Origin: Thermoplasmata archaeon
GTDB taxonomy: Archaea > Thermoplasmatota > Thermoplasmata > Thermoplasmatales > Thermoplasmataceae
DNA: 64,000 bases
Direction of reading: 5' to 3'
Assembly: GCA_021794355.1 (NCBI GenBank)
Contig: JAJYRA010000069.1
Coordinates: forward strand, 1-64,000
The notes under the pieces were generated by a model. The model did no database searches, was not told the DNA's origin, and saw only the letters and a list, made by a program, of their open reading frames with translations. The translations under genes were made by a program, and so were the position numbers. Of this stretch, positions 1,007 through 13,588 are shown one piece after another. The number at the start of each line of letters is the position of its first letter. Positions within the stretch are counted from its first letter, which is position 1.

Positions 1007-1056
1007 AGTGCTTACAAATAATAATACATAAACCAATAAAAATATTTGTATCAAAC

Positions 1057-1366
1057 CTATGGCGGTAATATACAGTTGATACTATAATTATATTTTGTAT
1101 CATTTCTTACGGGAAATACCGAATTCAGAAGCAATAAAAATGTATTTCGTAATTATCAGTTTTGCTAATACTGTGAGAAAATATAAGAGCGAAAGTGAGA
1201 AAGAATACTTTGAATCCAGTAGATAAAGGAATAGAAACAAAGCTCAGTAATTCATTGATTTAGAATACGTACAATAATGAAATGAGGAATAAAGCCTATC
1301 TATTGCTTAATTTGAGTAATGTGATTAGAAGGTTGTGATAAATTCAACCATCTATTTCCGCCATAG
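1057..1366 (+). mobile_element. 310-bp MITE-like element, copy 1
   Basis: A non-coding element of 310 bp with imperfect terminal inverted repeats. The left end is CTATGGCGGTAATATACAG. The right end, read inverted, is CTATGGCGGAAATAGATGG. It is flanked by a perfect 8-bp direct repeat TATCAAAC at 1049-1056 and 1367-1374, which reads as a target-site duplication. A second copy of identical length lies inverted at 13144-13453. No ORF of useful length lies inside, so it would need a transposase supplied in trans. The 8-bp duplication fits IS66- or ISL3-like enzymes among others, but I cannot assign a parent. Confidence 0.85.
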
Positions 1367-1551
1367 TATCAAACAAATACTTAGTGGGGAATTAAAGAAG
1401 TGAATTATCCACATTTCCGTTGAAACACTGATTCAGATCAGAAAAGTGAGCTGGAACTTCCGATCAATTATTGTGAATCGGCACCCTCATCCCTGATAAC
1501 CTGCCAGATTGCTTGTACTCCAATCCACTTCCCAGGAAATTAGCAATATTA

Positions 1552-12935: not shown

Positions 12936-13143
12936 AACTCATACTACTTTATCTTTCTTAATACACTATTTCATGTGTATGATAAAATCCTAAAAAAACC
13001 CCTGCTCTTTTTAATAATCTTTCTGTTATTTCCTTTGGTGATGTGATCGTTAGAGATAGTCCTATTTATGAAGTGTAAGCAAATGTAATTAGTTTTTCTA
13101 TCATTCATGGGGTAATAATGGCATTAACCAAAGCCTTAGGGGG

Positions 13144-13453
13144 CAATGGCTGAAATAGATGGTTGATTTACTACAACCTTCTAATCACATTACTCAAATT
13201 ATGCAATAGATAGACTTCATCCCACATTTCATTATTGTATGTATCCCTATCCAATGAATTACTGAGCTTTGTTTCTATTGCTTTATCTACTGGATTCAGA
13301 GTATTCCTTCTCACTTTTGCTCTTATGTTTTCTTACAGTTGTTAGCATAGCTGGTAATTATGCAATACATCTTGATTGTTTCTGAATCTGGTATTTTCCG
13401 TAAGAAGTGACACATAATATAATTATAGTGCCAACTGTATATAACCGTCATAG
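13144..13453 (-). mobile_element. 310-bp MITE-like element, copy 2 (inverted)
   Basis: Reverse-complement copy of the element at 1057-1366, the same length to the base. Most positions match by eye, including long identical blocks such as TGAATCCAGTAGATAAAG and TAATGTGATTAGAAGGTTGT. Its ends are CAATGGCTGAAATAGATGG and, inverted, CTATGACGGTTATATACAG. It is flanked by a perfect 8-bp repeat TTAGGGGG at 13136-13143 and 13454-13461. The differing 8-bp repeats show that the two copies inserted independently. Confidence 0.85.
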
Positions 13454-13513
13454 TTAGGGGGGGTATATAAAGAATGAAATTTCTAAAGAGATTATCTGGA
13501 ACGGAATTTAAAA

Positions 13514-13588
13514 TGCTCCAGTCGGGATTTGAACCCGAGTCGAGAGATTGAGAGCCTCTTATGCTTGGCCTGGCTACACTACTGGAGC
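13514..13588 (-). tRNA. tRNA-Glu(CTC)
   Basis: The 75-nt reverse strand folds as a full cloverleaf. The acceptor arms are GCTCCAG and CTGGAGC with discriminator A. The T arm is TCGGGTTCAAATCCCGA. The anticodon stem is AGAGG/TCTCT around loop CTCTCAA, which gives anticodon CTC. No CCA is encoded and I see no intron. It lies 60 bp beyond copy 2 of the 310-bp element. Confidence 0.92.

Follow-up and report, generated by a model that had tools for sequence, protein, structure and literature searches.

A 310-bp MITE family of Thermoplasmatales related to two-ORF insertion sequences of IS256/Mutator type

Miniature inverted-repeat elements (MITEs) are already known from archaea, namely SM1-SM4 of Sulfolobus and the set of Kamoun et al. 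2013 (PMC3852290, PMC10969869). Like the repeats described here, they are short, non-coding, multi-copy, IS-derived and mostly bounded by inverted ends, but their ends and parent families are different; among the new MITEs tabulated in PMC3852290 none comes from Thermoplasmatales and none has an IS256/Mutator-like parent. The unnamed-family IS of Ferroplasma acidarmanus (ISFac11 etc., PMC3852290 Table 3) belong to the same order, are multi-copy and fall into no known family, and two unknown-family IS of this species make 6- or 9-bp duplications, not 8, the comparison being one of descriptions and not of sequences. For the parent elements, the closest described system is IS256/Mutator (MULE), with ISCth4 (PDB 6xg8) as the reference: both have a DDE transposase whose last acid is preceded by a helical insertion, 8-bp duplications and inverted ends, and the best profiles are IS256 and MULE/Transposase_mut. 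The parent differs from IS256 in its two ORFs, a transposase of 530-580 aa with an N-terminal CxxC, CTATGG tips, and scores below the NCBIfam cut-offs. As a kind of element the MITE is familiar, while this family is newly placed here; no published description of it was found in open papers, most subscription papers and ISfinder being outside the scope of the search.

The initial annotation of the window (the whole stretch of DNA analysed, 64 kb) reported two 310-bp copies of a MITE-like element with inverted ends, each between perfect 8-bp repeats that differ from one copy to the other. By sequence, both copies are real, and the repeats were read at the exact element ends:

1057..1366, + strand: MITE copy 1, 310 bp
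1049..1056 (left) and 1367..1374 (right), no strand: target-site duplication of copy 1, TATCAAAC, from sequence
1057..1079, + strand: left terminal inverted repeat of copy 1, CTATGGCGGTAATATACAGTTGA, with the tip of the full-length IS elements
1344..1366, - strand: right terminal inverted repeat of copy 1, CTATGGCGGAAATAGATGGTTGA (read on the - strand), from sequence
13144..13453, - strand: MITE copy 2, 310 bp, in the orientation opposite to copy 1
13136..13143 and 13454..13461, no strand: target-site duplication of copy 2, TTAGGGGG, from sequence

Compared over their first 22 nt, the ends of copy 1 agree in most positions, and perfectly in the first 9. The copies are alike in long blocks, as annotated (87% identity over 308 positions), with the correction that they are mutually inverted; a repeat search returns them as inverted pairs, with arms of 174 and 112 nt.

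The source genome is a 2.05-Mb draft in 89 contigs (labelled G000; contigs C1, C3 etc.) and contains ~30 copies of the MITE, mostly of 307-312 bp. Twenty-eight matches cover most of the element with 76-93% identity to copy 1, in addition to several partial ones, and the 22-base end pattern (≤3 mismatches) has 59 genome matches, against 1 for the reversed control pattern. The duplications were counted in the 25 copies with both flanks readable, the flanks being taken at the exact ends. The 8-bp duplication is perfect in 9 of these and shows one mismatch in a further 3 (≤1 mismatch in 12/25), exact direct repeats of 4-7 or 9-13 bp are present at the ends of none of the 25, and when the left flank of one copy was compared with the right flank of another, 0 of 600 pairings gave an exact 8-bp repeat. 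The annotation had named many copies with such repeats as support, and coincidental repeats as refutation; with ~30 copies and 9/25 against 0/600, the repeats are not coincidental. The remaining 11 of the 25 copies are without a recognisable duplication, for which decay, deletion or recombination is needed as an explanation (recombination between such copies was sought by cross-matching their flanks, with no cross-matches). Two further insertions are split over contigs, with CCATAGTG common to C26 and C86 and TGTTAAAC common to C54 and C81, beside the element ends in both cases. Several contig ends fall inside copies, a point in favour of an ordinary dispersed or assembly repeat flanked by repeats through chance; this reading is refuted by the duplication statistics and by the empty site described below, and its probability is negligible. 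The pairwise identity of the copies is 97% for the best pairs with a median of 85%, and a stretch of 127 bp is identical between the ends of contigs C54, C81 and C86, which suggests that the MITE spread in several waves, some of them recent. Another genome of the source genus (G048) is without a copy.

The annotation would have been refuted by conservation of the element at orthologous sites with no empty counterparts. An empty paralogous site is present in the source genome, on contig C1 (5490-6085), which matches both flanks of copy 1 (97% and 91%) with the element missing. The copy 1 locus, minus the element and one repeat, aligns continuously with C1, where the target is a single TATTAAAC. 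The flanks of copy 1 are thus part of a repeated sequence, one copy of which lacks the element. The neighbour of copy 2 is a tRNA-Glu gene (13514-13588, - strand), whose 3' end is ~60 bp away; the side of this site towards the gene aligns in other species (in G049 from just past the duplication), and the other flank does not. The paralogous site without insertion also bears on whether the repeats are now functional non-coding regulatory or structural RNA or DNA under selection, transposition being their origin only. Such a role could be read from the copy 1 strand, which folds somewhat more stably than its shuffles (z -2.1), chiefly via the inverted ends. The copies are, however, degraded and ~15% apart, the substitutions in their coding remnants are spread over the codon positions (101, 79, 114), and an Rfam search with the MITE gave no match, all of which makes this role highly improbable.

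The statement that no protein is encoded holds, the frames of copy 1 being broken, but remnants of two transposon genes, though decayed, can still be recognised:

1080..1161, + strand: leader segment (TATCATTTCTTA..GAAAA motif, GTAATTA), by alignment homologous to what precedes ORF1 in full-length elements
1162..1219, + strand: decayed ORF1 start, by alignment; consensus of the copies M L T T A R K H K S K S G K E Y S E
1220..1326, + strand: decayed ORF2 (transposase) 3' end, the final ~36 codons, by alignment with the G070 and G061 elements
13186..13311, - strand: ORF2 C-terminal remnant of copy 2, aligned with residues 151-192 of the G070 fragment at 48% identity

The left ~160 nt of the MITE aligns with the left end, the leader and the first ~17 ORF1 codons of full-length elements, and the right ~150 nt with the last ~36-40 ORF2 codons, the stop and the right inverted repeat. 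More than 20 MITE copies were matched in a protein search by the last ~40 residues of the G070 transposase fragment, and in a profile search of the source genome several copies match the end of the transposase profile. The homology of both halves to full-length elements, together with the coding remnants, indicates that the MITE is an internal-deletion derivative of a two-ORF IS of 2.1-2.3 kb, a relationship that goes beyond mere common end motifs. The closest parent of the same subtype is found in G070 (another genus of the same family), with a right end 81-83% identical; this parental copy, a same-subtype right end with transposase, is interrupted by a contig end. No intact helper of the exact MITE subtype was found in the source genome; such a helper would carry the right end AATCAACCATC..CCGCCATAG. 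The sole large transposase remnant there (C3:29548-30363; L148:3824-4705) is truncated and of the sister subtype, its 5' half being replaced by another mobile element and its right end being of the sister type, ACCGGACAATTTCCGCCGTAG. Another mobile element likewise interrupts the MITE copy at C8:30423 onward (L029); of the transposases encoded by the two interrupting elements, one is IS4/IS1634-like and the other IS630- or ISAzo13-like.

An autonomous IS with the same ends, proposed in the annotation as a further check, does exist in related archaea. Some related genomes match the MITE at a single end, beside transposase-like ORFs. The full-length elements have a length of 2113-2282 bp, CTATGG-type ends, perfect 8-bp duplications (within the 8-9 bp of IS256) and an ORF1 of ~106 aa without a Pfam match, followed directly or with a slight overlap by ORF2 (530-580 aa), which encodes the DDE transposase. 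In protein searches, some of whose matches are distant, the transposase family is present in 31/117 genomes of the order; members occur in Ferroplasma acidarmanus Fer1, Ferroplasmaceae UBA567, E-plasma and several Thermoplasmata MAGs. In viral contigs, neither a transposase relative nor the end pattern was present. In the leaders of some full-length elements, a near-perfect palindrome of 22-28 bp, e.g. ATAGTATGTAGTAATTACTACATACAAT, is located just before ORF1 (L130:1008-1035, L129:2233-2254; also in the sister MITE of C24). It is mostly gone from the 310-bp MITE and may possibly be an operator for self-regulation.

The conserved columns of the transposase are LxxDGT, DMR or DM, ICxxHF and NxxxE (D..D..E and C-x2-H), a pattern that corresponds to the DDE arrangement of Mutator/IS256 enzymes. 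The best NCBIfam model is IS256 (NF033543), with ≤38 bits against a cut-off of 150, so the curated model is not passed; Pfam MULE reaches up to 26.7 bits (cut-off 27.6), and Transposase_mut 21.7 bits (cut-off 21) for one member only. The AlphaFold2 model of the transposase (mean pLDDT 76.6) has ISCth4 (IS256 family, 6xg8) as its best Foldseek match in the PDB, with an E of 1.6e-7, followed by the Hermes and P-element transposases. The global TM-scores for ISCth4 are low (0.23/0.30), probably owing to a differing domain placement, and the predicted fold therefore supports the placement in the superfamily, not in the family. The PDB sequence search gave only weak matches to influenza HA2, which were set aside as spurious, since they cover a helical segment and have no functional connection. 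The description of the element as belonging to an unknown family thus stands insofar as the curated models were missed or only grazed, and falls insofar as the transposase is recognisably IS256/Mutator-like. The parents apparently form an IS256/Mutator-related archaeal group, which may be an undescribed subgroup. Other Thermoplasmata (L135, L139) have a third group of related transposases (528-561 aa), and the L135 protein scores for the IS66, ISL3, IS256 and MULE models together, near the Pfam cut-offs.

It is also conceivable that the family was moved by an unrelated resident transposase, with end likeness through chance. The source genome has an ISL3 transposase (C41), and ISL3 elements likewise typically make 8-bp duplications; it also has a 533-aa Mutator-like ORF (C48:2531-3970). 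In the loci scanned (L075, L077), the ISL3 genes are not enclosed by a pair of CTATGG-type ends with an 8-bp duplication, and ISL3 was rejected as mobiliser. The C48 protein belongs to a second Mutator-like group, which resembles the parent in its length of 2.12 kb, its 8-bp duplication and its ORF1 plus MULE-type ORF2, but shows only ~22% protein identity to it; its closest full-length relative (G044, L134) has ends of the ATATGGCGTCA type, not CTATGGCGG. Since the coding remnants within the MITE come from ORF1 and ORF2 of CTATGG elements, mobilisation by either resident enzyme is very unlikely.

An element was classified as a MITE by a length below ~600 bp with inverted ends, multiple copies with a duplication of fixed length, the lack of a transposase and the existence of an autonomous partner. 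The present element has 310 bp with inverted ends, ~30 copies, only 8-bp duplications and broken frames, and its partners are the CTATGG-ended full-length IS of related genomes, with the same-subtype right end in G070. The copies, the exact duplications, the empty site and the full-length IS in relatives agree with the annotation of a non-autonomous MITE-like element, and we put at about 94% the probability that it is a genuine MITE, derived by one internal deletion from a two-ORF IS and spread by a DDE transposase in trans. A single internal deletion joined the first ~160 bp to the last ~150 bp of such an IS, retaining the ends required by the transposase for recognition and cutting. The DDE transposase of a full-length relative, acting in trans, would then have spread the MITE to ~30 sites, presumably by pairing both ends and joining them to an 8-bp staggered cut in the target, which would produce the duplication. 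The helper may since have been lost or broken, or may be missing from the draft assembly of the source organism. ISCth4 uses replication-linked copy-out/paste-in and Hermes cut-and-paste; the sequence would be compatible with either route.

Related elements are found in tandem and nested arrangements. In Ferroplasmaceae UBA567 (L123:729-5057), CTAAAATG flanks two different full-length IS (48% protein identity) on either side and also stands between them, and in C54/C81 of the source genome (C81:313-3497, L058) three junctions carry GTTTAACA. In both cases, and independently, the duplication of a resident element seems to have been the exact insertion site of a later one. C81:321-3489 (L058) is bounded on one side by a MITE and on the other by a sister-type MITE, with the perfect GTTTAACA duplication outside, and is a possible composite transposon. 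Its interior (1056-2833) contains three ORFs of unknown function with no Pfam or PADLOC match, and none of 11 other genomes of the source genus has its 261-aa protein. The second MITE subtype, of ~314 bp (C24:1998-2311, C70:15714 onward and C81:2930-3489 in the source genome), keeps a different piece of the same transposase and has the target-site duplication TATGAATA at C24; in C81 a third element of 242 bp, with ATATGG ends and its own 8-bp duplication, is nested in the right end of the ~314-bp MITE. The 191-bp element at C13:69001-69191 (L061:3002-3192) has ends of the CTATGG type and a perfect duplication, CACCGGAC, but is otherwise unlike the 310-bp family. A wider proposal is that the two-ORF parents stand apart from IS256 as an undescribed IS family of their own in acidophilic Thermoplasmata, that their transposase tends to insert into the 8-bp duplication of a resident element and so forms tandem arrays at one target, and that their MITEs can serve as the outer ends of composite transposons with host genes; taken as a whole, we consider it rather doubtful.

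In general, Thermoplasmatales gain a MITE family of ~30 copies with a clear insertion history, and an orphan-looking archaeal MITE is now tied to its parent IS through the coding remnants of both genes. A two-ORF IS256/Mutator-related subgroup is documented, which for the most part escapes the curated transposase models. The high copy number of the MITE accounts for several contig breaks in the assembly, and in acid-mine archaea the family provides a marker for mobility at the level of strains.
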